NCBI RefSeq assembly: GCF_018682675.1
Contig: NZ_JAFMTR010000035.1
Location: forward strand, 1-64,000
DNA length: 64,000 bases
From: Sphingopyxis soli
GTDB taxonomy: Bacteria > Pseudomonadota > Alphaproteobacteria > Sphingomonadales > Sphingomonadaceae
Reading direction: 5' to 3'
The notes below the pieces were generated by a model. It ran no database searches and had not been told where the DNA came from. It saw only the letters and a program-made list of their open reading frames with translations. Positions within the stretch are counted from its first letter, which is position 1. Every line of letters starts with the position of its first letter. Position numbers and translations under genes: made by a program. Below are positions 21,606 to 37,754 of this stretch, one piece after another.

Positions 21606-23201
21606 ATGACGGCGAACCACGCGCAACGATCGATCGAGCGGGGGCTTCGCAACCCCGAATTGCTTGCGGCGGCGCTCGCGCTTTCCGAAGGCCGGCTCCA
21701 CGACGCCGAACCGGTGCTGAAGGCGCATCTGAAGCAGGATCCGTTCGACGTTGCAGCGATCCGTATGCTTGCCGAACTCGCGGCGCGCATCGAACGCTAT
21801 CGTGACGCCGAGGCGCTGCTGCGCCGCGCACTCGAACTGGCGCCCGAATTTCTGGCGGCGCGCTCGAACCTCGCGACCGTCCTGCACCGGCAGGGGCGAT
21901 CGGGCGAGGCTGTCGAGGAGCTGGAAAAGTTGCAGATCGTCGACCCCGACAATCTGATGAACGCCAATCTGAAGGCCGCGGCGCTCGGGCGCGTTGGCGA
22001 ATTCGACGAAGCGCTCGAACTTTACGAGAAGGTGCTGCAGACCTTCGGCAAGCAGCCGAAGATATGGATGTCCTACGGGCATATGCTCAAGACGGTCGGG
22101 CGGCAGGCCGACGCTGTCGCGGCCTATCGCAAGGCGATCGAGCTTCGTCCTTCGCTCGGTGAGGTGTGGTGGAGCCTTGCCAACCTCAAGACTTTCCGTT
22201 TCGGCGACGCCGATCTGGCGGCGATGGAGGAGACGCTCGAACGTGGCGACATCGCGCCCGAGGATCGCTTCCACCTCCATTTCGCGCTGGGCAAGGCAAA
22301 TGAGGACCGGCAGCAGGCCGAAGCAGCCTTCGCCCATTACGACCGCGGCAATGCGCTGCGAAAGGCGATGCTCGATTATGACGCCGGTCAGACGCGCGCA
22401 TCGGTCGATCACGCGAAGGTGCTGTACACGGCGGCGTTTTTTGCCGAGCGTCCGGATCATGGCTGCGCCGCACCCGATCCGGTCTTCATCGTCGGGATGC
22501 CGCGCGCCGGATCGACGCTGATCGAGCAGATCCTGTCGAGCCATTCGATGATCGAGGGCACGATGGAACTGCCCGATATCCCGAAACTGTTCGCCAAGGC
22601 GCGGAACATGGGCGGGATCGCCCGGCTGACCGCCGCGGAGGCGCGCGAGTTTGGCGAGCAATATCTCCGCGACACGCAGGTACAGCGCAAGAGCGGCAAG
22701 CCCTTCTATATCGACAAGCTGCCGAACAACTGGCTGCATGTCGGCTTCATCCGGCTGATCCTCCCCCATGCCAAGATCATCGACGCGCGGCGTCATCCCA
22801 TGGATTGCTGTTTCTCCAACTTCAAACAGCATTTCGCGCGCGGGCAGGCATTCAGCTACAGCCTGACCGATATGGGGCGCTACTATGCCGATTATGTCGA
22901 GCTGATGGACCATTTCGACACGGTGCTGCCCGGTCACGTCCACCGCGTCTTTCATGAACGCGTGATCGGCGACCTCGAAGGCGAGGTGCGCGCGATGCTC
23001 GCCTATATGGACCTCCCGTTCGAGCAGGCGTGCCTGGACTTTCATGCCAACGACCGCGCCGTTCGTACCGCGAGCTCCGAGCAGGTGCGGCGCCCGATCA
23101 ACCGCGACGGCGTCGACCAGTGGCGCGCGATGGAACCGTGGCTCGGCCCGCTTGTCGAGGCGTTGGGGCCGGTTCTGACGCAATATCCGGTTCGCGCCTG
23201 A
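21606..23201 (+). CDS. TPR-repeat sulfotransferase family protein
   Basis: This 531-residue protein joins N-terminal TPR repeats (to about residue 270) to a sulfotransferase domain. The 5' PAPS-binding loop is GMPRAGSTLIEQIL near residues 297-310, and the 3' phosphate-binding segment is probably IDARRHPMDCCFSNF. Sulfotransferases transfer sulfate from PAPS; the substrate is not indicated. It is coupled to the DsbA-like gene and followed by a TonB-dependent receptor after 149 bases, a pairing often seen in sphingomonads and relatives. Confidence 0.86.
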   Translation: MTANHAQRSIERGLRNPELLAAALALSEGRLHDAEPVLKAHLKQDPFDVAAIRMLAELAARIERYRDAEALLRRALELAPEFLAARSNLATVLHRQGRSGEAVEELEKLQIVDPDNLMNANLKAAALGRVGEFDEALELYEKVLQTFGKQPKIWMSYGHMLKTVGRQADAVAAYRKAIELRPSLGEVWWSLANLKTFRFGDADLAAMEETLERGDIAPEDRFHLHFALGKANEDRQQAEAAFAHYDRGNALRKAMLDYDAGQTRASVDHAKVLYTAAFFAERPDHGCAAPDPVFIVGMPRAGSTLIEQILSSHSMIEGTMELPDIPKLFAKARNMGGIARLTAAEAREFGEQYLRDTQVQRKSGKPFYIDKLPNNWLHVGFIRLILPHAKIIDARRHPMDCCFSNFKQHFARGQAFSYSLTDMGRYYADYVELMDHFDTVLPGHVHRVFHERVIGDLEGEVRAMLAYMDLPFEQACLDFHANDRAVRTASSEQVRRPINRDGVDQWRAMEPWLGPLVEALGPVLTQYPVRA

Positions 23202-23350: not shown

Positions 23351-25813
23351 ATGGGGTTTCGTTTTTCACGCCGCGCGGTGCTGCTGGCATCCTTGTCGAC
23401 GACGATGCTGTCGCCGGGGGCCGCGATGGCGCAAGGCGCTTCGGATGCGGGCGCCGACGACGAGATCATCGTCACCGCGCAGAAGCGCGAGGAAAATCTG
23501 CAGAATGTTCCGATCAGCATCCAGGCGCTCGGGACGCGCAAGCTCGACCAGCTGAACGTCGCCAACTTCCAGGATTTCTCGAAGCTCCTCCCGAGCGTTT
23601 CCTTCCAGTCGAGCCAGCCGGGCGTCACCACCGTCTATATGCGCGGCGTCGCGAGCGGCGGCGACGGCAACCATTCGGGCTCGCTGCCCAGCGTCGGCGT
23701 CTATCTCGACGAACAGCCGGTCACGACGATCGGCGGCACGCTCGACGTCCATATCTATGACATCGCGCGCATCGAATCGCTCGCGGGTCCGCAAGGTACG
23801 CTCTACGGCGCCTCGTCGCAGGCGGGCACGATCCGCATCATCACCAACAAGCCGAGCACGGCGGGCTTCGAAGGCCGCGTCGACGGCGAGCTGAACACGA
23901 TCAAGCATGGCGGCACCGGCGGCCGCCTCGAAGGCATGATCAATGCGCCGCTCAGCGAAATGGCCGCGGTTCGCCTCGTCGGCTGGTACCAGAAGGACGC
24001 GGGCTATATCGACAATGTGCCCGGAACCCGCTCGTTCCTGCCGACGCCCGGCGGCATCACTGTCGACAACGACGCCTTCGTCGAGAAGGATTTCAACGAT
24101 GCCGAAATCTATGGTGGCCGCGCCGCGCTGAAGGTCGACCTCGACGACAATTGGACGATCACGCCGACAGTCCTCTACCAGAAGCAAAAGAGCCACGGAA
24201 CCTTTGCGCAGGACCCGCTTGTCGGCGATCTGCAGGTCCAGCGCTTCTATCCCGACTCGCGCAGCGACAAGTTCATCCAGGCGGCGCTGACGATCGAGGG
24301 CAAGCTCGGCAATTTCGACGTCACTTATGCGGGCGCCTATCTCGACCGCAAGACGTACCAGATCAACGACTATACCGATTATGCCGAGGCCTATGACGCG
24401 CTCTATGCCTCTTATGGCGGCCTAGCCGGCTATTTCTATTTCCAGGACAATGCCGGCGACACGATCGACCCGCGCCAATATATCATCGGCACCGACCATT
24501 TCCGCAAGCTGAGCCAGGAACTGCGCATCTCGTCGCCGCAGGACTCGCGCTTCCGTGTCGTCGCTGGGCTGTTCTTCCAGCGCCAGAGCAACGAAATCCA
24601 CCAGGACTATATCGTCCCCGGCCTCGCCGACGCGCTGTCGGTCAACGGTCGTCCGGGCACGCTGTGGCTCACCGAGCAGAAGCGTGTCGACAAGGATTAT
24701 GCGGCGTTCGGCGAGGCGAGCTTCGACATCACCCCGACGGTCACGCTGACCGGGGGCGGGCGTTATTACAAATATGACAACAGCCTGATCGGCTTCTTCG
24801 GCTTCGGCCGCAATCCCAATGGCCCGCCGTTCAATGGCGCAGGCAGCTCGCGGACCGGTGTTGCCGGCTGCTACACCACGACGGGGGCGATCCTGCGCGA
24901 CAATCCGGGCGGTACCCTGCTCCCCGCCGAGGTCGAAGGCGGACCCTGTACCAACCTTGCCGATTATGTGAACGGCAAGCTGGTCCCCAAGCGGACGAAG
25001 GATACGGGCTTCACCCACCGTCTGAACCTGACGTGGAAACCCAGCGAGGATGTCCTGACCTATGCGACATGGTCGCGGGGGTTCCGGCCGGGCGGCATCA
25101 ATCGTCGCGCAACGATCGCGCCCTATGACGCCGATTTCCTCACCAACTATGAGCTCGGGATCAAGACTACGCTCGCCGACGGGATGGTTCGCCTGAACGC
25201 TGCCGTCTATCTGCAGAACTGGAAGCGTTTCCAGTTCTCCTTCTTGGGGCTCAACAGCTTTACCGAGATTCACAATGGTCCGAATGCCCGGATCAAGGGG
25301 ATCGAGGCGGACATCAATATTCGGCCCACCGACGGGCTGACGATCTCGGCGGCGGCGTCCTACACCGACGCCAAGACGCGCAACAATCTCTGCGCGATCG
25401 ACGATCCGACGTATCAATGTACCGCCGACCCCGACAATTCGATCGCGGCGCCGAAGGGGACGCGCTTGCCCGTCACGCCGAAGTTCAACGGCAATGCCAC
25501 CGTGCGCTATGCCTTCCCGGTCGGACCGGGCGAGTTGCACCTGCAGTCGGTGATCGCGCATCGCGGGTCGGCGAGTTCGGATATCCGGGTCGATGTCGCG
25601 AACGAGCTTGGCCGCATTCGCGGATCTACGACGGTCGATTTCGCGATCGGGTTCGACTGGAGCCGCTACAGCTTCGAGTTGTTCCTGCAGAATGCGTTCG
25701 ACGAGCGCGCCGAGCTGTCGCGCTTCTCGAACTGCGGGCAGTGCAACGGTCGTGTGCAGATCCTCGTGAACCAGCCCCAGACGCTCGGGGCGCGGCTGGG
25801 CGCCAAGTTCTGA
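23351..25813 (+). CDS. TonB-dependent outer-membrane receptor
   Basis: The 820-residue protein has a signal peptide (MGFRFSRRAVLLASLSTTML, cleavage near AMA-QG), a TonB box DEIIVTAQKREENLQNVPIS at about residues 36-55, a plug domain with GPQGTLYGASSQAGTIRI, and a 22-strand-type barrel ending QTLGARLGAKF. Such receptors import large or scarce substrates with TonB energy. No N-terminal STN signalling domain is present. The ligand is unknown; the adjoining permease and oxidoreductases suggest a small organic compound rather than iron, which is inference. Confidence 0.92.
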   Translation: MGFRFSRRAVLLASLSTTMLSPGAAMAQGASDAGADDEIIVTAQKREENLQNVPISIQALGTRKLDQLNVANFQDFSKLLPSVSFQSSQPGVTTVYMRGVASGGDGNHSGSLPSVGVYLDEQPVTTIGGTLDVHIYDIARIESLAGPQGTLYGASSQAGTIRIITNKPSTAGFEGRVDGELNTIKHGGTGGRLEGMINAPLSEMAAVRLVGWYQKDAGYIDNVPGTRSFLPTPGGITVDNDAFVEKDFNDAEIYGGRAALKVDLDDNWTITPTVLYQKQKSHGTFAQDPLVGDLQVQRFYPDSRSDKFIQAALTIEGKLGNFDVTYAGAYLDRKTYQINDYTDYAEAYDALYASYGGLAGYFYFQDNAGDTIDPRQYIIGTDHFRKLSQELRISSPQDSRFRVVAGLFFQRQSNEIHQDYIVPGLADALSVNGRPGTLWLTEQKRVDKDYAAFGEASFDITPTVTLTGGGRYYKYDNSLIGFFGFGRNPNGPPFNGAGSSRTGVAGCYTTTGAILRDNPGGTLLPAEVEGGPCTNLADYVNGKLVPKRTKDTGFTHRLNLTWKPSEDVLTYATWSRGFRPGGINRRATIAPYDADFLTNYELGIKTTLADGMVRLNAAVYLQNWKRFQFSFLGLNSFTEIHNGPNARIKGIEADINIRPTDGLTISAAASYTDAKTRNNLCAIDDPTYQCTADPDNSIAAPKGTRLPVTPKFNGNATVRYAFPVGPGELHLQSVIAHRGSASSDIRVDVANELGRIRGSTTVDFAIGFDWSRYSFELFLQNAFDERAELSRFSNCGQCNGRVQILVNQPQTLGARLGAKF

Positions 25814-25817
25814 TCTG

Positions 25818-27164
25818 GTGACCGATAGCGCGACCAGCACCGAAAGGCCGAGCCAAAAGCTCGGCCTTTTGATGTGCATCGCCCTCGGCATGGGCAATAT
25901 GATCGGGTCGGGGGTGTTCCTGCTTCCGCGCGACCTTGCCCCGCTCGGCTGGAATGCCGTGATCGGCTGGGGCGTGACGATCACCGGAACCCTCTGCCTC
26001 GCGCTGATCTTTGCGCGCCTGTCGCGCCGCCTGCCGGGCGGCAGCGCGGCGTTTACCTATGCCGACGCCGCCTTCGGCCCCGGGGTCGGTTTCATCGTCG
26101 CGTGGAGCTACTGGATCAGCTGCTGGACCGCGAACGCGACGCTGGCGGTGGCGGCGATCAGCAACCTGTCGATTGTCGCGTCACGGCTGGGCGAGAAGGG
26201 GCCGCTTGCGGCGCTGCTTGCGATCGGCTTTTTGTGGTTCTTCACCCTCATCAACCTCACCGGTGTGCGCCGCGCTGGGAACACGCAGGTCATCACCCTC
26301 CTGCTCAAGCTGGTGCCGGTTATCGGAGCCATCGGCGTCGCGCTGTGGCTACTCGGTACGGGGGAGGCGCGCGTCGAGGGGATGGCGCACACCGCGCCGG
26401 TCAGCCTGTCGGCGATCAGCGGCGCCGCGACGCTGACATTGTTCGCGCTGCTCGGCTTCGAAAGCGCGGCAATCGTCGGCGATCGCGTGAAGGATCCCGA
26501 ACGCACGATCCCGCGCGCGACATTAATCGCGGCGGCGGCGACCGGCCTGCTTTACCTCCTCTCCTGCACCGCGGTGACCTTGCTGCTGCCGGTCGACACG
26601 CTCCAGCAATCGAACGCCGCCTATGCGACCTTCTTCGGCGCCCTTGTAAGCCCGACGGCGGGTGACGTCGTCGCGATCTTCGCGGCGATCGCCGCGCTCG
26701 GCGCGCTCAACGGCTTCGTATTGCTGCAGGGCGAGATTCCCCGCGAGCTGGCGCACCGCCGCCTTCTCCCGTCGCTGCTCGGCCGCGACAACCGGTTCGG
26801 CTCGCCTCTCGCCGCACAGATCCTGTCGAGCGCGCTCGCGAGCGTCGTCGTTTACGCCAATTATTCGCGCGGCCTGGCCGGGCTCTTCACCTTCATGGTG
26901 CTGGTAACGACCTCGACAGCGATCATCCTCTACGTCGTCGGCAGCCTCGCTGCCCTGAAGCTCGAACGTCGCGGCGAGCTGCGCGTGTCGCCGGGCTTCG
27001 CGGCAGTAACGCTCGTCGGTGCCGCCTACAGCTGCTGGGCCTTTTACGGCGCCGGGCTGGAAGCGAGCCTGTGGAGCCTGGCGATGACCGCGGCGGGGCT
27101 TCCCATCTATGTCCTGATGCGTCGTTCAGCGCCAGCGCGGCGCGAAGAAGCCCCGATCGCGTAG
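25818..27164 (+). CDS. APC-family amino acid permease (AdiC/PotE-like)
   Basis: This 448-residue inner-membrane transporter has about 12 hydrophobic segments. TM1 reads KLGLLMCIALGMGNMIGSGV, with the helix-breaking GSG motif that binds substrate carboxylates in APC proteins, followed by FLLPRDLAPLG as in AdiC-like exchangers. TM6 has LTLFALLGFESAAIVGDRVK with a conserved FE. GTG 25818 is 4 bases after the receptor stop. ATG 25872, just past an internal terminator hairpin, is an alternative start but would cut into TM1. The 3' end overlaps the convergent oxidoreductase gene by 39 bases. Confidence 0.88.
   Translation: MTDSATSTERPSQKLGLLMCIALGMGNMIGSGVFLLPRDLAPLGWNAVIGWGVTITGTLCLALIFARLSRRLPGGSAAFTYADAAFGPGVGFIVAWSYWISCWTANATLAVAAISNLSIVASRLGEKGPLAALLAIGFLWFFTLINLTGVRRAGNTQVITLLLKLVPVIGAIGVALWLLGTGEARVEGMAHTAPVSLSAISGAATLTLFALLGFESAAIVGDRVKDPERTIPRATLIAAAATGLLYLLSCTAVTLLLPVDTLQQSNAAYATFFGALVSPTAGDVVAIFAAIAALGALNGFVLLQGEIPRELAHRRLLPSLLGRDNRFGSPLAAQILSSALASVVVYANYSRGLAGLFTFMVLVTTSTAIILYVVGSLAALKLERRGELRVSPGFAAVTLVGAAYSCWAFYGAGLEASLWSLAMTAAGLPIYVLMRRSAPARREEAPIA
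25843..25870 (+). terminator. Intrinsic terminator lying inside the permease start region
   Basis: AAAGGCCGAGC pairs perfectly over 11 bases with GCTCGGCCTTT across the loop CAAAA, ending in TTTT. It sits 30 bases past the TonB-receptor stop and would end that transcript. At the same time it reads in frame as codons 9-18 of the permease. Signal and coding sequence overlap. Confidence 0.8.
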
Positions 27165-28730
27165 GATCACCTGCGCCGCGTTATGCCCCGGCGCGCCGGT
27201 CACGCCGCCGCCCGGGTGCGTGCCGGCGCCGCACATATAGAGCCCCTTCACCGGTCCGCGATAGCCGCCGTTGCCGAGCACCGGGCGCGCGGCCCACAGC
27301 TGGTCGAGGCTCATATTGCCGTGCATGATGTCGCCGCCGACCAGGCCGAACTTGCGTTCGAGTCCCTTGGGCGACAGGCGCGTGCTGCCGACGATGCTGG
27401 CGCGGAAGCCGGGTGCGTGCCTTTCGACCGTGTCGAGGATCGCGTCGGCGGCCGCTTCCTCCTCATCGTCCCAATCTCTCCCATTGGGCAGCTCGGGGGC
27501 GAATTGCTGGCAGAAGAGGCTCGCGACATGGCAACCCTCGGGCGCAAGGCTGTCGTCGACGGTCGAGGGGATCAACATCTCGACGATCGGCGCCTTCGAC
27601 CAGCCATGCTGTTTCGCGTCGAGGAAGGCCCGGTCCATATAATCGAGCGTCGGCGCCAGGATGATCCCCGACTGATGATGCTCGCCCGGTTCGGGAAGGC
27701 AGGAGAATCTGGGGAGCTCCGACAGCGCGACATTCATGCGGAACGTGCCGCTGCCCGCCTTGAAGCCTTTGATCCGGCGCTCGAAGTCGGCCGGCAGGTC
27801 GCCGGTATCCATCAGCCGCTCATAAAGCAGCTTCGGCCCGACATTGGCGATGACGCGCGCCGCGGCAATCTCCTCGCCGCTCACCAGCTTGACCCCGACC
27901 GCCTTGCCCCCATCGACGAGGACTTTGTTAACGGGGCTTTCGAGGCTGATCTCGACGCCCAGGTCGCGGCAGACCTTCGCCATGATCTCGGTGATCTTGC
28001 CCATCCCGCCGACGCTGTGCCCCCACGCGCCCTTCTTGCCGTTCACCTCGCCGAAGACGTGGTGCAGGAGCACGTAGGCGCTGCCCGGGGTGTCTGGGCT
28101 GGCGTAATTGCCGACGACCGCGTCGAAGCCGAAGGCGGCCTTGACCGCTTCGCTCTCGAACCAGCTGTCGAGCATCGTGCGCGCCGACTTGGTGAACAGG
28201 TCGAGCACATCGCGTTGCTGTTCGAGACTGAGCGTGGCGAAGCGCCGCCCTTGCCGGGCGCCATCGAGAAGCGTGCGCATCCCTTCGCCGACATTGGGCG
28301 GCACGCGCAGCGCGAGGTCGCGGAGCAGTTCGGCGACATTTTCGAGCGCGTCATAATAGGCCGGGAGCACGTCGGCGTCGCGTCCCGAAAACTTGCGGAA
28401 CTCGGCCTGCGTGCGCTCCAGCCCACCGCCGAGCTTGAGGTAACCACCATCTTCCTGCGGGAGGAAATTGCTGATCGGGCGTTCGATGACGCGATAGCCA
28501 TAATCGGCGAGCTTCATGTCGGCGATCACCTTCGGCTGGAGCAGGCTGACCGTGTAGCTCGCGACCGAATTGCGGAAGCCGGGCGCGAATTCCTCCGTGA
28601 CCGCGGCGCCGCCGACGACATCGCGCGCCTCGACGATGCGCACTTTCAGCCCCGCCTTGGCGAGATAGAAGGCGCAGACGAGGCCGTTGTGGCCGGCGCC
28701 GATAATCAGGGCGTCATAGGCTTTGGTCAT
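27126..28730 (-). CDS. FAD-dependent oxidoreductase, phytoene-dehydrogenase/PYROXD2-like
   Basis: The 534-residue flavoprotein begins YDALIIGAGHNGLVCAFYLA, a GxGxxG dinucleotide fold, then VVGGAAVTEEFAPGF. The C-terminal FAD motif is GLYMCGAGTHPGGGVTGAPG. These are features of the carotenoid-desaturase-like CrtI/PYROXD2 branch. No phytoene synthase is near, so a carotenoid role is not supported; oxidation or reduction of another hydrophobic substrate is likelier. It is the last gene of a leftward set with the monooxygenase (4-base overlap) and Rieske oxygenase. Confidence 0.85.
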   Translation of the reverse strand: MTKAYDALIIGAGHNGLVCAFYLAKAGLKVRIVEARDVVGGAAVTEEFAPGFRNSVASYTVSLLQPKVIADMKLADYGYRVIERPISNFLPQEDGGYLKLGGGLERTQAEFRKFSGRDADVLPAYYDALENVAELLRDLALRVPPNVGEGMRTLLDGARQGRRFATLSLEQQRDVLDLFTKSARTMLDSWFESEAVKAAFGFDAVVGNYASPDTPGSAYVLLHHVFGEVNGKKGAWGHSVGGMGKITEIMAKVCRDLGVEISLESPVNKVLVDGGKAVGVKLVSGEEIAAARVIANVGPKLLYERLMDTGDLPADFERRIKGFKAGSGTFRMNVALSELPRFSCLPEPGEHHQSGIILAPTLDYMDRAFLDAKQHGWSKAPIVEMLIPSTVDDSLAPEGCHVASLFCQQFAPELPNGRDWDDEEEAAADAILDTVERHAPGFRASIVGSTRLSPKGLERKFGLVGGDIMHGNMSLDQLWAARPVLGNGGYRGPVKGLYMCGAGTHPGGGVTGAPGHNAAQVILRDRGFFAPRWR

Positions 28731-29947
28731 GAAAACTCTTTCGCAAGCGGGGACTGGACATGCTGGCGGTCGAAGCCGAGGCCGAGAATATGGCCCGGAA
28801 TGCGGCGGAGCAGCGGGATGGCGTCGAGCAGGCGCACCGCGAAGGGCACGCGGGTGATTTCACCGCGCAGCATCGGTTCGATGACGCGCTGGTGCGCAAA
28901 ACGCTGGATCGCCTGCATCCGCGTCGTTGGCTTCCAGCGCCGTTCCTGCACCGCTGCGAGCAGCGGATCGGGATCGCGCCCGGCAGCGAGCGGCGCGGCG
29001 AGGATGTTCGCGGTCGCGACGGCATCCTGCACCGCGAGGTTGATGCCGACGCCGCCCACGGGCGACATGGCGTGCGCCGCATCGCCGATCGCGAGCAGAC
29101 CGGGACGCGACCAGCGCGTCAGCCGGTCGAGCGCGACCGACAGCAGTTTGACGTCGTCGAAGCTCCGGATCGCGCCGATCCCGGCGGCGAGTCCAGGCGC
29201 GATCTCGACGATCCGCGCGCGAAAGGCCGCGATCCCGCGCGCCTCGATCGAAGCAAAGCCGCCCTTCTCGATGATCTGAGCGCATTGCCAATAATCGCCG
29301 CGCGGGATCGCAACGACCATCCCCCCCTTGTCGATCGTGCCGAGCGCGACGTCGGACATGTCCATGCCTGCGGGCACCGGAATACGGAACCAGAGCACGT
29401 CCATCGGCGCGCCGAGATCTTCGAGCGGCAGTTCGGCAGCGTCGCGCAGGACCGAGCGGCGTCCGTCGGCGGCGATGACGAGCCGCGCAGGCAAAGTTCC
29501 GCCGCTTGCCAGCGTCACGCCGCTGACGCGGCCGGTATCGTCATAGGTCAGCCCGGTCGCCTCGGTCGACATGCGCAGATCGAAGGTCGGGTAGCGCCTG
29601 CCCTGCCCCGCGATGAAATCGAGCAGATCCCATTGCGGCATCATCGCGACGAAGGGCGCCGCGACGGGCAGGTGCTTCATCGTCGCGATGGTATAGCGCC
29701 CGCCCAGCAGATTGAGCGTCATCGTATCGATCGCCGCGTGCGGCTCCTTCAGCAGCTCGCCGAGCAGTCCGATTTCGTTGAACAGTTCGAGCGTCGAGGG
29801 ATGTACCGTGTCGCCGCGGAAGTCGCGCAGGAAATCGGCATGTTTTTCGAGGATGGCGACGGGAACGCCGGCGCGGGCAAAGAGCAGCCCCGCGACCATG
29901 CCGGCGGGCCCGCCGCCGACGATGATGGCCCGGTGAACCTCAGCCAT
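28727..29947 (-). CDS. FAD-dependent aromatic monooxygenase (PHBH/UbiH type)
   Basis: This 406-residue flavin hydroxylase has the three family motifs: GGGPAGMVAGLLFARAG for ADP binding near residue 10, AADGRRSVLRDAAEL (DG motif), and AIGDAAHAMSPVGGVGINLA (GD motif). It would hydroxylate an aromatic or conjugated substrate with NAD(P)H and O2. The ATG at 29947 gives a clean N-terminus (MAEVHRAIIVGG); 17 extra upstream residues would run into a repeat. Its stop overlaps the phytoene-dehydrogenase-like start by 4 bases. Confidence 0.87.
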   Translation of the reverse strand: MAEVHRAIIVGGGPAGMVAGLLFARAGVPVAILEKHADFLRDFRGDTVHPSTLELFNEIGLLGELLKEPHAAIDTMTLNLLGGRYTIATMKHLPVAAPFVAMMPQWDLLDFIAGQGRRYPTFDLRMSTEATGLTYDDTGRVSGVTLASGGTLPARLVIAADGRRSVLRDAAELPLEDLGAPMDVLWFRIPVPAGMDMSDVALGTIDKGGMVVAIPRGDYWQCAQIIEKGGFASIEARGIAAFRARIVEIAPGLAAGIGAIRSFDDVKLLSVALDRLTRWSRPGLLAIGDAAHAMSPVGGVGINLAVQDAVATANILAAPLAAGRDPDPLLAAVQERRWKPTTRMQAIQRFAHQRVIEPMLRGEITRVPFAVRLLDAIPLLRRIPGHILGLGFDRQHVQSPLAKEFS

Positions 29948-29955
29948 ATCGGTCT

Positions 29956-30035
29956 CCGTTCGTGTCGAGCGAAGTCGAGACGCCGCGAGGCAGCGCACTC
30001 CCGATGGGCATCTCGACTTCGTTCGATGCGAACGG
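29956..30035. repeat. Palindromic intergenic repeat, family D
   Basis: A left arm CCGTTCGTGTCGAGCGAAGT and an inverted right arm whose complement begins CCGTTCGCATCGAACGAAGT face each other across about 26 bases. The arms of 27 bases have a few mismatches. It sits between the Rieske oxygenase and monooxygenase genes of the same direction, so it would fold in their mRNA and could separate their expression. Confidence 0.65.
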
Positions 30036-30046
30036 GAAAATTATCG

Positions 30047-31228
30047 TCATGCCCGGCTCCACCCCGGCGGCGGCGCCTGCTCCAGCCGCGCCTCGGGAAT
30101 GATCTCGCGCATCCGCGCGCAGAAATGTTTGAGGCAGACTTCCTTGTCGCTGAGCGGCCCCATCGAAAAGCTTTTCGATTGCATCCCCTGCTGCACGCGC
30201 GTGATCAGCTCGGTGTCCTCGGCATTGACCTGGCGGTTGATGCGCCAGTTGAGGTAGCGCGCCGCCTTCATCTCGCGGCGCTCGTCGGGTAGCACATAGC
30301 TGATCTCGCGGATCAGGCAGGTGGTCGGGCCGGTCGGCAGCCACTGCATGAAATCGACCTGATCGGGATAGATGTCGAAGGCGACGTTGGGCCAGAGCTT
30401 GAAATAGAGCCAGTGGCGTTGCCGGTCTTCGGGCAGATGCGGGACGGGCGGCAGCAGCCGCTGGTACATACGCTCCGACCAGTTGACCGACGGGCGGTCG
30501 ATCAGATCACCCCACATGCGGTCGACGCGATCCTCGGCCTCGACGCCATAGCTCTTGCCGAACAGGCGCGTGAGGCCGGGATGCGCGACGGGGATGTGGA
30601 GGCCATCCGAATAATTGTCGCCGACATTTTTCCAGTTCACCGCACGCGGGCGCAGGGTGACCCGGCCCAGCGCGCCCAGCTCCTCGAAACGGTACGGGTC
30701 GATCATCGCCTCATAGGGCGCCATCATGTGCGCAACCGACGGGCCGCCGTCATCGTCGAGCCGGACGAACCAGAAGCCGCGCCATTGCTCGAGCCCGACG
30801 GGTACGAGTCCGGCCTTGCCCTTGTCAAGGGTCGGATAGCTCGCGCTGTCGGGTACGCCAGAGAGCCGCCCGTCGAGTTCGTAGGTCCAGGCATGATAGG
30901 GACAGACGAGCTTCTTCGCGCAGCCCGCCGCGCCATCGACGAGGCGGGAGCCGCGGTGGCGGCAGACGTTGGTGAAGGCGCGCACGATGTGGTCGGTGCC
31001 GCGTACGAGAATCACGCTCTCGCCGCAATAGTCGATGCTATGCCAGTCGCCGGTGTTCGGGATGTCGCTGTCGTGGCAGGCGACCTGCCAGCTCGGGCGG
31101 AAGATGCGGTCCATTTCGGCGGCGTAGAAGTCGGGGTCGCTGTAGGTCCAGGCGGGGAGCGACCAGCCGTCCAGCGAATCGGTGGGGAGCGGGTCGATGG
31201 TGTCGAAGGTGTCGCGCAGCGTTGCCAT
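30047..31228 (-). CDS. Rieske [2Fe-2S] oxygenase, catalytic (alpha) subunit
   Basis: The 393-residue protein has the Rieske cluster motif C89-x-H91 and C109-x2-H112 (VCRHRGSRL and CPYHAWTYEL). The mononuclear iron site is in DNYSDGLHIPVAHPG with H211 and H216 and an Asp bridge near 208. The layout matches ring-hydroxylating and quaternary-amine (GbcA/CntA-like) oxygenases. A beta subunit, ferredoxin or reductase is not encoded nearby, so electrons must come from elsewhere. A BetI-type TetR gene is divergent across 33 bases, which might favour a methylated-amine substrate; the FAD hydroxylases point to aromatics. The substrate is open. Confidence 0.9.
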   Translation of the reverse strand: MATLRDTFDTIDPLPTDSLDGWSLPAWTYSDPDFYAAEMDRIFRPSWQVACHDSDIPNTGDWHSIDYCGESVILVRGTDHIVRAFTNVCRHRGSRLVDGAAGCAKKLVCPYHAWTYELDGRLSGVPDSASYPTLDKGKAGLVPVGLEQWRGFWFVRLDDDGGPSVAHMMAPYEAMIDPYRFEELGALGRVTLRPRAVNWKNVGDNYSDGLHIPVAHPGLTRLFGKSYGVEAEDRVDRMWGDLIDRPSVNWSERMYQRLLPPVPHLPEDRQRHWLYFKLWPNVAFDIYPDQVDFMQWLPTGPTTCLIREISYVLPDERREMKAARYLNWRINRQVNAEDTELITRVQQGMQSKSFSMGPLSDKEVCLKHFCARMREIIPEARLEQAPPPGWSRA

Positions 31229-31238
31229 GGTTCGTTCC

Positions 31239-31260
31239 TTGTTGTACGATTGTATAACAA
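31239..31260. promoter_or_regulatory. Candidate TetR operator between the Rieske and TetR genes
   Basis: TTGTTGTAC and GTATAACAA form an inverted repeat with one mismatch across a GATT spacer. It occupies most of the 33 bases between two divergent start codons. The regulator encoded beside it is the natural binding partner; binding there could block both genes. Confidence 0.65.
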
Positions 31261-31261
31261 C

Positions 31262-31855
31262 ATGACCGCCGCTCGCCAAGCCTTTACGCGCGAAAGCGCC
31301 GATGCCCGCCGGGCGGACCTGATCGAGGCGACCGCGGCGGTGCTGGCCGAACATGGCCTCGCGGGGACGAGCGTCCGCGCGATCTGCGCGCAGGCGGGGG
31401 TGTCGCCCGGGCTGCTGCGCCATTATTTCGAGGGAATCGACGACCTGGTCGCCGCGACCTATCAGGCGACGAGCGACCGGATGGACGCGATCTTCGCGGG
31501 CGCGGTGGAAGCGGCCGGCGCCGATCCGCGCGCGCGGTTGTCGGCTTACCTCACCGCGAGCTTCCGCGCGCCGGTGACCGATCCCGAACTGCTCGGCGCA
31601 TGGACCGCCTTCTGGGCGCTGGCGCGGAGTGACGCACGGATGGCGGCGATCCACGCGACGAGCTACGCCGGCTATCGCGCGCGCCTCGGCGAATTGCTCG
31701 TCGCGTGCGGCGCGCGCGATCCCGACCGGCTGGCGATCATGCTGACCGCGATGGTCGACGGTCTGTGGCTCGAACTCTCGCTCGACGCCGCGAGCTTCGG
31801 CGCCGACGCCGCGGCGCAGATGGTCGAACGCGCGCTGGCCGCGCTGCTGCCCTAG
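31262..31855 (+). CDS. TetR-family transcriptional regulator (BetI-like)
   Basis: This 197-residue repressor-type protein has an N-terminal helix-turn-helix (TSVRAICAQAGVSPGLLRHYF, about residues 35-55) and a ligand-binding C-terminal half of the BetI-like type. It is divergent from the Rieske oxygenase gene and only 33 bases away, with a palindrome in the gap, so it probably regulates itself and the oxygenase. Its TAG stop and the stop of the convergent TetR gene share the palindrome CTAG. Confidence 0.88.
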   Translation: MTAARQAFTRESADARRADLIEATAAVLAEHGLAGTSVRAICAQAGVSPGLLRHYFEGIDDLVAATYQATSDRMDAIFAGAVEAAGADPRARLSAYLTASFRAPVTDPELLGAWTAFWALARSDARMAAIHATSYAGYRARLGELLVACGARDPDRLAIMLTAMVDGLWLELSLDAASFGADAAAQMVERALAALLP

Positions 31856-32424
31856 CCGCCGGTTGCGTAACGCTGGACCGTCGCGCCGACCTCGGCGAGG
31901 ATCGTTTCGCGGTCGAGCGCGACGACGGGAGGCAGCGCGAGGACGTAGCGCGTGAGCGCGAGGCCGAGGATCTGGCTGGCGACGAGCCCGGCGCGTTGCG
32001 ACGCGGTTGCGGACGGACCGAGCGACAGCAGCACGGGCAGCACCTGGGCTGCGAACAATTGCTGGATTCGCGTCGCCGCGAATTCGTTCGACGCCGCCGA
32101 ACGGAGAAGGACCGGCAGGCCGCCGTTCGCGCTGTCGCCCTCCCACAGCGCCAGGAAATGCGCGACGAGCGTCCGCCCGACATGCGCGGGATCGATGCTG
32201 GCGACATCGGGCAGGCCCAGGTCGAAATCGGCGACCTCGGCAAACAGGCGGTCCTTGCTGCCGAAATAGCGGATCACCATCGCGGGATCGATCGCCGCCG
32301 CCGCGGCAATGTCGCGAATCCCCGTCCGCTCATAGCCATGCTCGGCGAACAGCCGCCGCGCGGCCGCTTCGATCGCCGCGCGCGTGCGTTCCGATTTCTT
32401 CATTTTCAACGGCTTGTCGACCAT
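31852..32424 (-). CDS. TetR-family transcriptional regulator
   Basis: This 190-residue regulator has the N-terminal HTH GIRDIAAAAAIDPAMVIRYF (about residues 33-52). The ATG at 32424 (MVDKPLKMKKSERTR) was chosen; 32403 (MKKSERTR) is possible. Further upstream in-frame sequence overlaps two palindromes that look like operators, so longer versions are unlikely. It is divergent from the second FAD monooxygenase and convergent, with a 4-base overlap, with the BetI-like gene. Confidence 0.87.
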   Translation of the reverse strand: MVDKPLKMKKSERTRAAIEAAARRLFAEHGYERTGIRDIAAAAAIDPAMVIRYFGSKDRLFAEVADFDLGLPDVASIDPAHVGRTLVAHFLALWEGDSANGGLPVLLRSAASNEFAATRIQQLFAAQVLPVLLSLGPSATASQRAGLVASQILGLALTRYVLALPPVVALDRETILAEVGATVQRYATGG

Positions 32425-32437
32425 GGCGCAACATTTA

Positions 32438-32451
32438 TCAACGATTGTTGA
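32438..32451. promoter_or_regulatory. Candidate operator 1 (TCAAC-N4-GTTGA)
   Basis: TCAACGATTGTTGA is a palindrome with 5-base arms lying just upstream of the TetR start at 32424. A near-identical palindrome lies 39 bases away, centre to centre, which supports a shared regulator. Confidence 0.6.
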
Positions 32452-32475
32452 CAAAAACAAGCTCATGTGAGAAAA

Positions 32476-32491
32476 GTCAACAAATGTTGAC
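32476..32491. promoter_or_regulatory. Candidate operator 2 (GTCAAC-N4-GTTGAC)
   Basis: GTCAACAAATGTTGAC has perfect 6-base arms and lies directly before the AAAGGAG ribosome site of the monooxygenase gene. It shares the TCAAC-N4-GTTGA core with operator 1. Confidence 0.65.
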
Positions 32492-32507
32492 AAAAGGAGT
32501 CGAGACG

Positions 32508-33749
32508 ATGAAGATGAAGACCGACGTGCTGATCGTCGGCGCCGGCCCCACCGGGCTCGCGCTCGCCACCGCGCTGCAGCAGGCGGGGATCGACCATCTG
32601 CTGATCGACCGGCTGGAGGCGGGCCTCAATCTGTCGCGCGCCGGGGTGATCCATGCGCACACGCTGGAAATGCTCGAACCGCTGGGCGTCGTGCCACAGA
32701 TGCTGGCCGAGGGCCTGAAGATGACGCGCTTTGCGGTGCGCGACCGGCGCCACCGGCTGATGTCGATCGATTTCGACCGGCTGCCGTCGCGCTATCCCTT
32801 CGTGCTGATGCTGCCGCAGGACGTCACCGAACGCATCCTGACCGAGCGGCTCGCCGCGCTCGGCGGCCGGGTGCATCGCGGCGTCGAGGCGCTGGACCTT
32901 GCGCAGGATGCGGACGGCGTGACGGTGCGCGTGATGACCGGGAGTGGCGAACGGACGATCCGCGCTCGCTACGTCGTCGGCGGCGACGGGATGCACAGCA
33001 AGGTGCGCGAGGCGTCGACCATCGCCTTCGAGGGCGGACGCTACGAAGAGAGCTTCGTGCTCGCCGATGTGAGCTTCGCGGTGCCCCCGCGCGAGCAGGA
33101 GGTGTCGCTGTTCTTCTCACCCGCGGGGATGGTCGTCGTCGCACCGCTGCCCGGCGGACGCCATCGTATCGTCGCGACGCACCGCCACGAAGGCGAGCGC
33201 CCCGATCGCGCCGCGATCCAGCATTTGCTCGACACGCGCGGCCCCGAGCGCGGCGGGCCGGCGGTCGTCCCGGTGGTCGCCGAAGTCCACTGGAGTTCGG
33301 CGTTCCGCGTCCACCACCGCGTCGCCGACACCTATCGGGACGGCCGCCTGCTCGTCATGGGCGACGCCGCGCACGTCCACAGCCCCGCGGGCGGGCAGGG
33401 GATGAACACCGGGATCGTCGATGCGATGCTGCTGGCACCGTTGCTGGCGCGCGTCGTGCGCGGCGCGCCCGAAAGCCTGCTCGATGCGTATGGCGCGCGG
33501 CGCCGTCCGGCCGCCGAGGCGGTGCTGGGGCTGGCGGGACGGCTGACGAAACTGGCGCTGGTTCGCGGGCGGGTCCGGCGCGGGGTGCGCAACCTGTTGC
33601 TGCGGGCACTCGACCGGGTGCCGCCGTTCAAGGCGAAGCTGGCGCTGCAACTGTCGGGGATCGCGCGGCGCGAGCTGGCGGTGGCCCCGGGCGGAGACGC
33701 GGGTTCGGCGGGGGAGGGTGATGCGACGGGGTGGCGGCTTGCGGCCTGA
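32508..33749 (+). CDS. FAD-dependent monooxygenase (PHBH family)
   Basis: The 413-residue flavoprotein carries VLIVGAGPTGLALATALQQA near residue 7, VVGGDGMHSKVREA, and LVMGDAAHVHSPAGGQGMNT, the three signature motifs of aromatic hydroxylases such as PHBH, phenol and polyketide hydroxylases. The ATG at 32508 has AGGAG 8 bases upstream. A tail of about 25 residues rich in Gly and Ala ends the protein. It faces away from its likely TetR regulator with two palindromic operators between. Confidence 0.88.
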   Translation: MKMKTDVLIVGAGPTGLALATALQQAGIDHLLIDRLEAGLNLSRAGVIHAHTLEMLEPLGVVPQMLAEGLKMTRFAVRDRRHRLMSIDFDRLPSRYPFVLMLPQDVTERILTERLAALGGRVHRGVEALDLAQDADGVTVRVMTGSGERTIRARYVVGGDGMHSKVREASTIAFEGGRYEESFVLADVSFAVPPREQEVSLFFSPAGMVVVAPLPGGRHRIVATHRHEGERPDRAAIQHLLDTRGPERGGPAVVPVVAEVHWSSAFRVHHRVADTYRDGRLLVMGDAAHVHSPAGGQGMNTGIVDAMLLAPLLARVVRGAPESLLDAYGARRRPAAEAVLGLAGRLTKLALVRGRVRRGVRNLLLRALDRVPPFKAKLALQLSGIARRELAVAPGGDAGSAGEGDATGWRLAA

Positions 33750-34690: not shown

Positions 34691-34999
34691 ATGGCGAAAC
34701 GGAGCCTCTACCAGCGCTTGCGGCGTAATGCGCAGGTTCGCCTCGCGCTCTTCCTGCTCGGCGTGCTGCTGATCGTCGCCGCGCCGGTCGTCGGCGTGCT
34801 TCCCGGCCCCGGCTTCATCATCCTCTTCCCCGTCGGCCTGATGCTCTGCCTCCAGAACAGCGCGTGGGCCAAGCGGCGCTATGTCCGCTTCAAGCGCAGT
34901 CACCCGCGCTACGGCGAGCGCGCCGACCGGATCATGCGCCGCGTCAGCGCCGCGCGGCGGCGGGCACGTGCCGCCCTGGAGTCGCTTGATGGCGATTGA
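34691..34999 (+). CDS. Small PGPGW-type transmembrane protein
   Basis: This 102-residue protein has a basic N-terminus (MAKRSLYQRLRRNAQ), a hydrophobic helix (LALFLLGVLLIVAAPVVGVL), then PGPGFIILFPVGLMLCLQNS, close to the PGPGW motif of a family of small membrane proteins of unknown function, and a basic C-terminal tail. ATG at 34691 follows the repeat block. A good terminator follows at 35038, before rpmH. Confidence 0.75.
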   Translation: MAKRSLYQRLRRNAQVRLALFLLGVLLIVAAPVVGVLPGPGFIILFPVGLMLCLQNSAWAKRRYVRFKRSHPRYGERADRIMRRVSAARRRARAALESLDGD

Positions 35000-35037
35000 C
35001 TTTGCCCCGAATCCCGCTTATCGGCGCGTCCAACAGT

Positions 35038-35063
35038 GGCCGCCCACGTCTGGCGGCCCTTTT
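35038..35063 (+). terminator. Intrinsic terminator before rpmH
   Basis: GGCCGCC pairs with GGCGGCC across CACGTCT and is followed by CTTTT. It ends the PGPGW gene transcript and separates it from the rpmH operon. Confidence 0.75.
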
Positions 35064-35100
35064 CTGTTACGGCATTTGACAAGATCTAGGGAAAACCGCG

Positions 35101-35235
35101 ATGAAGCGCACCTATCAACCGAGCCGCCTCGTGCGCAAGCGCCGTCACGGCTTCCGCGCCCGCAAGGCCACCGTCGGCGGCCGCAAGGTTCTGGCCGCTC
35201 GCCGCGCCCGCGGCCGCAAGAAGCTGTCGGCCTAA
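35101..35235 (+). CDS. rpmH: 50S ribosomal protein L34
   Basis: The 44-residue protein reads [20 protein letters not shown] and ends GRKKLSA, which is unmistakable L34, a small basic protein of the large subunit. It heads the conserved rpmH-rnpA-yidD-yidC-engB run, which in many bacteria lies near the replication origin. The rnpA start follows 29 bases after its stop. Confidence 0.97.
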
Positions 35236-35264
35236 GCGCCGGCGCTTCTGCGCCAGCCCGTCTG

Positions 35265-35612
35265 GTGCGAACGCTATCGAAACGCAGCGAATTTCTGGCC
35301 GCCAACCGCGGCCTTCGCTTCCCTATGCCCGGCTTTGTCCTCCTCGTCCGCCCGCGCGGCGACGGCGACGATGAGCCGGGCGTCGGCTTTACGGTCAGCA
35401 AGAAGGTCGGCAACGCCGTCACCCGCAACCGGATTAAGCGCCGCTTCCGCGAACTTGCGCGCGCCGCGCTTCGCGAATCGGGCATCGCCGGCGCCGACCA
35501 TGTGCTGATCGGGCGCCCCGGCGGCAACGACATCGCCTTTGCCGAACTCGGCGAGCATCTCGATTCGGCGCTAAAGCGCGCGGCGAAGAAGCTGGCGGCG
35601 AAGGCGTTATGA
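35265..35612 (+). CDS. rnpA: Ribonuclease P protein component
   Basis: The 115-residue basic protein assists RNase P RNA in maturing tRNA 5' ends. It begins with GTG at 35265 (VRTLSKRSEFLAANRG) and has the RNR motif region NAVTRNRIKRRFRELAR. Its length and gene order after rpmH agree with the family. A family A repeat separates it from yidD. Confidence 0.95.
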   Translation: MRTLSKRSEFLAANRGLRFPMPGFVLLVRPRGDGDDEPGVGFTVSKKVGNAVTRNRIKRRFRELARAALRESGIAGADHVLIGRPGGNDIAFAELGEHLDSALKRAAKKLAAKAL

Positions 35613-35632
35613 GCGTTGCCCTTCTCCCTTAT

Positions 35633-35705
35633 CGTCACCCCGGACTTGATCCGGGGTCCATAACCACCGCGGTCGCATGGACCCCGGATCAAGTCCGGGG
35701 TGACG
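35633..35705. repeat. Palindromic repeat, family A, copy 2, inside the rnpA-yidD gap
   Basis: Perfect 28-base inverted arms (CGTCACCCCGGACTTGATCC onward and its inverse) lie 20 bases after rnpA and 49 bases before yidD. It is the same element as at 34516-34588, one kilobase away and in a conserved operon. Confidence 0.85.
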
Positions 35706-35754
35706 AACAAAGGGCAATCGCGAATGAAGTTCGGCAGTTTTCCGGTCTTTGTTC

Positions 35755-35967
35755 ATGATCGCAAAGCTGCTCATCCTGATCGCCCGCGGCTGGCAACTCG
35801 GCCCGTCGCGCATCCTGCCGCCGACCTGCCGCTACGCCCCGTCGTGCAGCGAATATGCGATCGTCGCGTTCAAACGCCATGGTGCGATCAAGGGTGGCTG
35901 GCTGGCGACAAAGCGGCTATTGCGCTGCCATCCTTGGGGCGGTCACGGCTACGACCCGGTTCCGTGA
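35755..35967 (+). CDS. yidD: Membrane protein insertion efficiency factor YidD
   Basis: The 70-residue protein has the YidD signature: an amphipathic N-terminus, [20 protein letters not shown] with the conserved cysteines, and [14 protein letters not shown]. It aids YidC-dependent membrane insertion. ATG 35755 lacks an obvious ribosome site. yidC follows 44 bases after its stop. Confidence 0.95.
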
Positions 35968-36011
35968 AGCCGTATTCCCGACATTTTTGAGACGAAGAGA
36001 GACCGAAGAGC

Positions 36012-37754
36012 GTGGACGACAAGCGTAACTGGATCACGGCAATCTTGCTGTCGGCGGCCATCCTGCTGGGCTGGAACTTCGTCGCGCAGAAATTCTTCCC
36101 GACCCCGACGAAGCCCGACGTGACCAAGACGGTTGCGGGTTCGCCGACCGCGGCGACCGCCACGCCGGGCACGCCCGCCACGCCGCCGGCAACGGGTGCG
36201 ACCCCCGCCGCGCCCGCCGTGCAGGCGATCGTCCCCGTCGAAACCGCCGTTGCCTCGGCCAACCGCGTGCCGATCGAGACCCCGGCGCTCGCGGGCTCGA
36301 TCAACCTCGCCGGCGCGCGCATCGACGATGTGACGCTCACCAAATATCGCCAGACGATCAAGAAGAACGCGCCGCCGGTGCGCCTCTTCGCGCCCGGCAA
36401 CACCAAGGCCGCCTATTTCGCGAGCGTCGGCTGGGCCGCGCAGGGCATCGAGGTTCCGGGCCCCGCGACGATCTGGACCGCGTCGGGTGCGAAGCTCACG
36501 CCGACGACGCCGGTGACGCTGAGCTGGTCGAACACGACCGGCCAGACGTTCCGCATCGAATATAGCATCGACGCCGATTATCTGATCACCGCGAAACAGA
36601 CGATCGCCAACAGCGGCGCGGCACCGGTCAGCGCAAGCAGCTTCGCGCTGATCGACCGGCTCGGCAAGCCGACCGATCCGCACGAACAGGACAGCTGGAC
36701 GATCCACGTCGGGCCGACCGGCTATCTCGGCGGCAAATCGGTGTTCGACGTCAATTACACCGACCTCGACGACGGTACTGCGGCGAAATATGATTCGGCC
36801 GGCTGGCTCGGTTTCACCGACAAATATTGGCTCGCGGCGGTCGTCCCGGCCAAGGGCGAACGCGTCAGCGCGTCGATCACCTCGCCCGCAGCCAACAATT
36901 ACCAGACGCTGTTCGCCCGCAATTTCGCCGAGGTCGCACCCGGCAAGCAGATCACGACGACGACGCGCATCTTCGCGGGCGCGAAGGAGGTCTATACCCT
37001 CCAGCGCTATGAGAAGGACCAGGGCATTACCCGCCTGTCGAACGCGATCGACTGGGGCTGGTTCGAATTTTTCGCGGTGCCGATCTTCAAGCTGCTCGAC
37101 TGGCTGTTCCGCATGGTCGGCAATTTCGGCGTCGCGATCATGCTGCTGACGCTGATCATCCGCGGCCTGATGTTCCCGATCGCGCAGCGTCAGTTCCATT
37201 CGATGGCGCAGATGCGCCTCGTCCAGCCGAAGATGAAGGCGCTGCAGGAACGCTACAAGGACGACAAGCCGCGCCAGCAGCAGGAGCTGATGAAGCTCTA
37301 CAAGGACGAGAAGATCAATCCGCTCGCGGGCTGTCTGCCGATCGTCATCCAGATTCCGATCTTCTATGCACTCTACAAGGTGCTGATGCTGACGATCGAA
37401 ATGCGCCACCAGCCCTTCGCGCTGTGGATCAAGGATCTGTCGGCGCCCGATCCGGCGCATTTCCTGAACCTGTTCGGGCTCCTGGACTTCACGCCGCCGT
37501 CGCTGCTCGCGCTCGGGCCGCTCGCGCTGATCCTCGGCATCACGATGTTCCTCCAGTTCCGCCTCAACCCGCAGGCGACCGATCCGGTGCAGCAGCAGGT
37601 GTTCAAGATCATGCCGTGGATGTTCATGTTCATCATGGCGCCGTTCGCGGCGGGCCTGCTGCTCTACTGGATCACGAACAACTGCCTGTCGATCGCGCAG
37701 CAGCAGTTCATGTATCGCAAGTTCCCGCAGCTGAAGGCGGCCCCGGCGAAGTGA
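36012..37754 (+). CDS. yidC: Membrane protein insertase YidC
   Basis: This 580-residue insertase integrates proteins into the inner membrane with or without Sec. The start is GTG at 36012 ([22 protein letters not shown]1), followed by a Pro/Ala/Thr-rich linker, a periplasmic beta-domain (about residues 95-350), and the conserved five-helix core with [40 protein letters not shown] and [20 protein letters not shown]. The stop overlaps the engB GTG start by 4 bases. Confidence 0.97.

Follow-up and report, generated by a model that had tools for sequence, protein, structure and literature searches.

A conserved Rieske oxygenase-PYROXD2 module of Sphingopyxis soli with a possible role in oxidative N-demethylation

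What a Rieske oxygenase, two flavin adenine dinucleotide (FAD) hydroxylases, a PYROXD2/CrtI-like flavoenzyme and two TetR regulators could be oxidising together, and whether all of them belong together in the first place, are the questions raised by a locus of Sphingopyxis soli. The locus lies within bases 1-64000 of contig 56 (the window, 64,000 nucleotides (nt) in all) of a 3.63 Mb genome that is 99.99% complete. The original prediction drew it as one locally regulated oxidoreductase cluster with two switches. The comparisons described here delineate a smaller core formed by the regulator TetR1, the Rieske oxygenase alpha subunit (RO), the PYROXD2-like enzyme (PYROXD2) and the transporters, and the known kind with which this module would belong is that of the Rieske systems acting on quaternary and N-methyl amines. 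To the reading that the conserved, locally regulated module carries out oxidative N-demethylation of a cationic amino-acid-like compound we give about an even chance.

Genes of the module and their conservation

Gene calls together with Pfam and NCBIfam models recover the complete predicted gene set, which is arranged as follows.

21606..23201, + strand, TPR-sulfotransferase (PF13469), kept left neighbour of the TonB receptor
23351..25813, + strand, TonB-dependent receptor (PF00593/PF07715)
25818..27164, + strand, APC permease (PF13520)
27126..28730, - strand, PYROXD2/CrtI-like FAD enzyme (PF01593)
28727..29947, - strand, FMO1, FAD hydroxylase (NF004834, PRK06185)
30047..31228, - strand, RO (PF00848 and PF00355)
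31239..31260, no strand, predicted TetR1 operator TTGTTRTACNNNNGTAYAACAA, a palindrome in the RO/TetR1 gap
31262..31855, + strand, TetR1, BetI-type repressor (PF13977, PF00440)
31852..32424, - strand, TetR2 (TetR_C_16; PF17920, PF00440)
32437..32452, no strand, TetR2 operator-like palindrome 1, three mismatches to copy 2
32476..32491, no strand, TetR2 operator-like palindrome 2 GTCAACAAATGTTGAC, in the TetR2-FMO2 gap
32508..33749, + strand, FMO2, class A FAD monooxygenase (rifampin-/PgaE-like; PF01494)

Each TetR gene is divergent from one oxygenase, the back-to-back arrangement that had been predicted, and the two TetR genes converge with a 4-nt overlap; PYROXD2 and FMO1 also overlap by 4 nt. 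The TonB receptor and the APC permease lie directly to the left, likewise as predicted. RO is the sole PF00848 match of the genome. The Pfam scan covered 19 window proteins, and none of these 19 is a reductase, a ferredoxin, a ring-cleavage enzyme or a carotenoid synthase, in agreement with the earlier statement that neither of the last two is nearby.

RO orthologs, defined as matches of at least 800 bits, are present in 30 of the 35 genomes of the genus, and relatives at 52-54% occur in 5 of 24 genomes from other families of the order. The surroundings were compared for all 30 same-genus RO loci and six others (fetched loci are designated L and genomes G). TetR1, RO and PYROXD2 stand in identical order in all 30 same-genus loci, and because of this recurrence their grouping exceeds chance. 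The APC permease is also found in all 30 (one copy is partial at a contig end), the TonB receptor in 29 (the exception, L042, ends at a contig end) and the sulfotransferase in 24, the fetched stretch stopping near it in several of the other six. Seventeen of the 30 loci have FMO1 between RO and PYROXD2, with at least five changes of its presence on the poorly resolved PYROXD2 tree. The TetR2-FMO2 pair occurs in a single same-genus locus (L051), and FMO2 in 2 of 60 genomes, its own genome counted. The core is TetR1-RO-PYROXD2 plus the transporters, FMO1 is optional and TetR2-FMO2 is a rare separate unit. The linkage of TetR1, RO and PYROXD2 stands, that of TetR2 and FMO2 with these genes does not, and the picture of one cluster with two switches finds no support; the limits drawn earlier also shift, as on the left the conserved neighbourhood takes in the APC permease, the TonB receptor and the sulfotransferase. 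A single regulon under two switches was rejected, as TetR2/FMO2 is missing from 29 of the 30 loci and the TetR1 operator occurs once in the genome.

Across the window and L032-L061 the transporters vary (TonB receptor 49-89% and APC permease 42-82% identity, versus 85-94% for RO and 86-96% for PYROXD2), as if the two transporter slots were kept while the versions filling them were swapped. In ten of the 30 same-genus loci (L032, L033, L035, L040, L041, L043, L049, L050, L052 and L055) a protein of 637-666 amino acids, by eye a double AAA ATPase, is encoded between the APC permease and PYROXD2. At L170 (G022) RO, TetR1 and the operator are gone and PYROXD2-FMO1 and the M20 peptidase flank are kept, a natural loss of the oxygenase.

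The oxygenase, its flavoenzyme partner and electron supply

RO is, judging from its sequence, the alpha subunit of a Rieske non-heme iron oxygenase, having both CxH-CxxH and 2-His-1-Asp: residues C89, H91, C109, H112, H211, H216 and D338 are invariant in alignment A1 and align to the carnitine monooxygenase CntA. CntA is also the best solved relative (130.7 bits with phmmer; 171 bits over nearly the full length with a profile). H211, H216 and D338 align to the CntA iron ligands H208, H213 and D323, the chain index of CntA in the alignment being, by our own count, the published number plus 20. The aromatic residue expected of group V, the quaternary ammonium Rieske oxygenases, is found in RO as well, its Y206 aligning to CntA Y203, which according to a passage of PMC7948474 binds the quaternary ammonium group; of 106 RO-cluster proteins, 100 have Tyr or Phe at this position. 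Equally, 100 of the 106 (360-412 amino acids long) have [DE]N[YF]xDxxH without a Cys pair, the six exceptions being three proteins with ECYHC or ECLHC (L078, L119, L146), one from L067 and those with DNYLESYH in L146 and L147. In a tree of 55 rows (two of 57 had been left out beforehand as atypical), RO belongs to a clade of 33 rows with support 91/99, next to which are the L146/L147 proteins (89/98). Beside this clade CntA forms a long branch of weak placement with one long row (L188) near it, and Stc2, GbcA-like and other Rieske rows lie elsewhere. RO thus appears to represent a distinct clade nearest CntA, resembling group V in its likely recognition of the substrate and lacking two group V marks. 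An AlphaFold model of RO from seven sequences was poor (predicted local distance difference test (pLDDT) 52.7). The Rieske protein of L169 had no phmmer match to solved structures at 1e-30.

The neighbours of PYROXD2 in relatives bear on the reaction. In L065 the order is gamma-glutamyltransferase (over the cut-off), RO, PYROXD2, AdhC-like and FghA-like, and in L066 it is RO, PYROXD2, AdhC-like; in both, AdhC comes after RO-PYROXD2 and shares their strand, and in L143 it is found no further than 8 kb from RO. At L178 AdhC and FghA, each scoring above its cut-off, are encoded divergently from an orphan PYROXD2 (61% identical, no RO). A PYROXD2 paralog in L163 is accompanied by SoxB (638.7 of 529), a SoxA-like protein (986 of 1164), PurU (330 of 286) and an ECYHC Rieske protein, and L164 is arranged alike; at 37% identity this context transfers only loosely to the window PYROXD2. 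Tandem PYROXD2 paralogs with GcvT-like proteins occur in L146, L147, L162 and L165-L168, the L146 protein, the one scanned among these tandem cases, scoring 217 of 300. Because of the AdhC/FghA, Sox and GcvT-like neighbours, we infer that PYROXD2 is an N-methyl amine dehydrogenase and that formaldehyde is the released carbon. The window genome encodes an AdhC over the cut-off. Where no route could be named originally, the neighbours in relatives now narrow it to N-methyl amine catabolism, with the substrate itself reached by inference; none of the neighbours seen pointed to a carotenoid or an aromatic-ring route.

Electrons are likely to be delivered in trans. No FAD_binding_6 (FNR-type) domain was found in the genome by a search that was positive in 8 of 14 control genomes, and the seven Fer2 matches and one Reductase_C protein of the genome are all on other contigs, in keeping with the prediction that no electron-transfer partner is nearby. 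Since no FNR-type reductase was found, a ferredoxin acting in trans and a ferredoxin reductase of the Reductase_C type likely make up the donor.

As for the other proteins, FMO1 passes NF004834 (530.9 bits, cut-off 500). FMO2 scores below NF004832 (291.6 of 476) and below the rifampin monooxygenase model (205.5 of 800 bits), with PgaE and rifampin monooxygenase among its solved relatives. Among the family models the APC permease comes closest to basic amino acid/polyamine antiporters, staying below every cut-off shown (TIGR00905, 253 bits versus 409).

The reaction, the substrate and competing explanations

Under the preferred reading, a cationic N-methylated amino acid, perhaps derived from peptides, would be imported through the TonB receptor in the outer membrane and the APC permease in the inner one, and would release TetR1 from its single operator. 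RO, supplied by a trans-encoded ferredoxin and ferredoxin reductase, would hydroxylate an N-methyl group to yield formaldehyde, PYROXD2 would oxidise off the next N-methyl group in a second demethylation, and the formaldehyde would enter the glutathione pathway (AdhC). FMO1 would be an optional tailoring enzyme, and TetR2/FMO2 would act as a separate unit. More speculatively, the substrate may be methylated arginine or another guanidino compound, the guanidine of which would be opened by a DDAH encoded in cis in some relatives and in trans here. If a methylated basic amino acid is indeed demethylated, protein methylation turnover would be tied to bacterial carbon and nitrogen nutrition, and an activity would be assigned to bacterial flavoenzymes of the PYROXD2 type, for which the family models return carotenoid enzymes.

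Beyond the genus, GTDB genomes were scanned, and the best 80 of 585 confirmed stretches (594 matched) entered the survey; among the matches listed, the named record with the closest RO is Sphingopyxis terrae (93%). Genes of the fetched loci were called with a home-made codon-score caller that overlooks some genes (of the 30 genus loci, TetR1 was called in 24 and detected by tblastn in all 30; of 86 non-genus loci, RO was called in 85), and the names of neighbours come in part from family-model scans and in part from reading by eye or clustering. The resulting 85 non-genus loci include L067, with a Rieske protein outside the clade, and the L146/L147 paralogs; L179-L181, for which no gene calls were obtained, were excluded. 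Within 8 kb of RO, PYROXD2 is encoded in 30 same-genus and 56 other loci, the APC permease in 30 and 47, an M20 peptidase in 26 and 21, a DDAH-type protein in 0 and 8, an Xaa-Pro-type amidohydrolase in 0 and 8, aldehyde dehydrogenase in 0 and 6, and AdhC in 0 and 3. Of the 115 loci, 60 have the PYROXD2 start at most 400 base pairs (bp) downstream of RO. The RO/PYROXD2 pair is found in many sphingomonads as well as in Caulobacteraceae, Inquilinus and gammaproteobacterial Steroidobacter (L119) records, and SAR86 and Porticoccaceae have RO with the APC permease and DDAH and no PYROXD2 nearby. Among the titles and abstract openings listed by searches of the open-licence PMC literature we found neither a function for the RO/PYROXD2 pair, nor a Rieske enzyme acting on methylarginine, nor any PYROXD2-Rieske pair.

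Methylated arginine or another guanidino compound is the leading guess for the substrate, because of the DDAH operons and because the APC permease is near basic amino acid antiporters, and even so methylated arginine itself is rather improbable. DDAH-type proteins share an operon with RO and the APC permease in 8 of the 85 non-genus loci. They belong to two subfamilies that are 26-33% identical to each other, one in L064, L130, L135, L137, L138 and L141 and the other in L077 and L144. The order in L077 is RO-PYROXD2-DDAH-APC, and in the tree its RO and that of the window share a starred group of four rows (98/91). Those DDAH-type proteins that were scanned fall short of the curated cut-offs (L138, 85.1 of 340; L077, 202.9 of 450), and 'dimethylargininase' denotes a relationship of these proteins and not their identity. 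The DDAH homologue of the window genome (154.6 of 450) is encoded elsewhere in the genome. RO and DDAH co-occur in 26 of 30 genomes of the genus, versus 0 of 5. An undescribed oxidative catabolism of symmetric or monomethyl arginine, in which a Rieske clade distinct from group V and a PYROXD2 amine dehydrogenase would remove those guanidine N-methyl groups that DDAH is not known to hydrolyse and bacterial PYROXD2 proteins would be N-demethylases rather than carotenoid enzymes, is a doubtful but specific form of the proposal. In other alphaproteobacteria, several DDAH-type proteins of L205-L208 adjoin, by eye, formate-tetrahydrofolate ligase-like and PotA-type ABC ATPase-like genes, and that of L210 adjoins an arginase-like gene.

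A number of observations weigh against N-demethylation, or against its methylarginine version. The DDAH homologue of the window genome is situated among asd, rplS and trmD-like genes, by eye a housekeeping-like setting, and in 77 of the 85 non-genus loci DDAH is missing from the 8-kb surroundings of RO. The L064-type subfamily is present in 11 of 385 alphaproteobacterial genomes (E 1e-50), and in none of the 11 was RO, the APC permease or PYROXD2 detected within 1.5 kb, so an obligatory DDAH-RO linkage was rejected from the DDAH side. Counted as independent contrasts, the co-occurrence within the genus comes down to one or two and lacks significance (G031, 73% complete, was omitted from the count, and G009 and G018 are incomplete and not in the tree); as proof it was discarded. 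Kynureninase-like and prolidase-like neighbours in some relatives suggest other substrates. AdhC is near RO in just 3 of the 85 non-genus loci, and PYROXD2 is present without RO in G015, G017 and G022. In RO the bridging Glu of group V is missing, D208 standing at CntA E205, and the E205D variant of CntA is reported as inactive in a passage of PMC7948474. The group V Cys pair is also missing from RO (G209/I212) and from all 100 clade-type proteins. The bridging residue is Asp in most Rieske enzymes. The Cys-x-x-Cys pair, in turn, is described in a passage of PMC10952381 as unique to some group V members. Finally, the nearest fold to the PYROXD2 model (pLDDT 90.3) is the gamma-carotene desaturase 4rep (Z 35.6, root-mean-square deviation 2.9, 477 aligned). 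Next, at Z 26-29, come a phytoene desaturase from a plant and two uncharacterised oxidoreductases; amine-oxidase folds rank lower, renalase and putrescine oxidase having Z values of about 24-25 and the monoamine oxidases of about 22-23. The structural comparison leans to the CrtI side, and the shared fold leaves the reaction undecided.

This last result would suit a cluster for aromatic-ring or (apo)carotenoid oxidation, in which a ring-hydroxylating Rieske enzyme works with FAD hydroxylases and a CrtI-type desaturase. CrtI is also the best PDB sequence relative of PYROXD2, which has its fold in common with the CrtI/CrtISO/CrtO flavoenzymes, and FMO1 and FMO2 are relatives of class A hydroxylases. 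PYROXD2, however, is under the curated cut-offs (CrtO, 260 of 1000; crtI_fam, 130.8 of 238.1 bits), no ring-cleavage, beta-subunit or carotenoid gene was seen among the 19 scanned window proteins, both FAD hydroxylases are dispensable, and the other included Rieske proteins of the genus and order, their substrates unchecked, are outside the RO clade. We consider such a cluster very unlikely, and a carotenoid role for PYROXD2, permitted by the fold, was rejected in view of neighbours that lend it no support. Another possibility is a CntA-like RO hydroxylating the carbon beside a cationic nitrogen and splitting the C-N bond into a methylamine and a semialdehyde, with PYROXD2 and an aldehyde dehydrogenase processing the pieces. 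CntA (group V; 6y8j) is the nearest full-length solved relative with the cation-pi tyrosine kept, and aldehyde dehydrogenase lies within 8 kb of RO in the six non-genus loci counted above. Yet the RO clade has Asp for its Glu205 and lacks its Cys206/Cys209 pair, and the AdhC/FghA and sarcosine-oxidase contexts favour formaldehyde over amine release; we consider C-N cleavage unlikely. The window genome also differs from the CntA system in that no FAD_binding_6 protein of the CntB/GbcB type was found in it.

The same low likelihood applies to an amino-acid betaine (that of histidine, tryptophan or proline) as substrate, or to a substrate that changes with the lineage, instead of methylated arginine. 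A kynureninase-like protein (227.6 of cut-off 246.4) is encoded divergently from APC-RO in L145, and kynA/kynU-like genes stand beside PYROXD2 in L169 and L171 (by eye; these genomes have no RO ortholog), an apparent connection to tryptophan that lacks an explanation. L082 encodes an Xaa-Pro dipeptidase (over the cut-off) no more than 4 kb from RO, in L063 RO adjoins a hydantoinase/carbamoylase-family protein with an ErtE score of 424.8 of 520, and the stachydrine demethylase Stc2 (3vca), a Rieske N-demethylase of the same broad set, is among the best solved relatives of RO (111 bits). Each of these links, however, is confined to one or a few lineages, the DDAH links are tighter and more numerous, and the APC permease is nearest basic amino acid antiporters; Stc2 also differs in that phmmer aligns RO residues 18-236 only and that it has a Cys pair, which RO does not.

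For oxidative N-demethylation, glycine betaine catabolism (GbcAB, followed by dimethylglycine/sarcosine oxidation) offers a known parallel, with a BetI-type repressor, a Rieske oxygenase and then a flavin enzyme, and with the SoxB/SoxA-like/PurU and ECYHC Rieske context of the PYROXD2 paralog in L163. Unlike that pathway, RO reaches 151.8 of 670 for GbcA, and no Sox gene is among the window neighbours scanned. The bacterial DDAH pathway resembles the proposal through the RO/APC operons with DDAH-type proteins and differs in that the window cluster has no DDAH, the homologue elsewhere being below the curated cut-off.

Local regulation and flanking features

The predicted TetR1 operator TTGTTRTACNNNNGTAYAACAA is situated in the 33-bp gap that separates the start codons of RO and TetR1 and is the sole match in the 3.63 Mb genome at up to three mismatches, a reversed-pattern control giving none. 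In 123 loci (2.08 Mb) the search returned 63 sites, 61 of them with an RO start within 200 bp; the operator is present in all 30 same-genus loci and in 33 of 86 others, and a shuffled control gave two matches in 40 loci on both strands. It is kept where the projected gap has widened from about 33 to about 145 bp. As the operator is unique in the genome and stands beside RO in relatives, TetR1 is most likely a purely local repressor of RO, and a wider TetR1 regulon including a reductase or DDAH was rejected on the same uniqueness. TetR1 has the BetI-type C-terminal domain PF13977 and is below the curated models of BetI, a choline-responsive repressor (107 bits versus cut-offs of 118 and 201.3). 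A promoter scanner found one promoter-like site in the RO/TetR1 region, in the TetR1 direction; the RO side was judged by eye only. With a single conserved operator, the substrate question becomes directly testable through ligand screening of TetR1.

In the TetR2-FMO2 gap there are two palindromes (palindrome 2 gives four matches in the window at up to three mismatches, both strands counted, 0.10 expected in shuffles), and sequences similar to both occur in L051, the one relative holding the pair. TetR2 is likely to regulate FMO2. The predicted local regulation is thus well supported for TetR1 and plausible for TetR2.

Most of the RO/FMO1 gap is taken up by a 29-nt inverted repeat at 29956-30035 (86% complementary, 22 nt between the arms), possibly a mobile element of the REP type or a hairpin in the transcript. 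On the right, relatives mostly have the M20 peptidase next after TetR1 (after FMO2 in L051), followed by nth, dapB and cobB, and the window has rnpA-yidC-yihA there (34691-38401); a rearrangement breakpoint to the right of FMO2 is likely.

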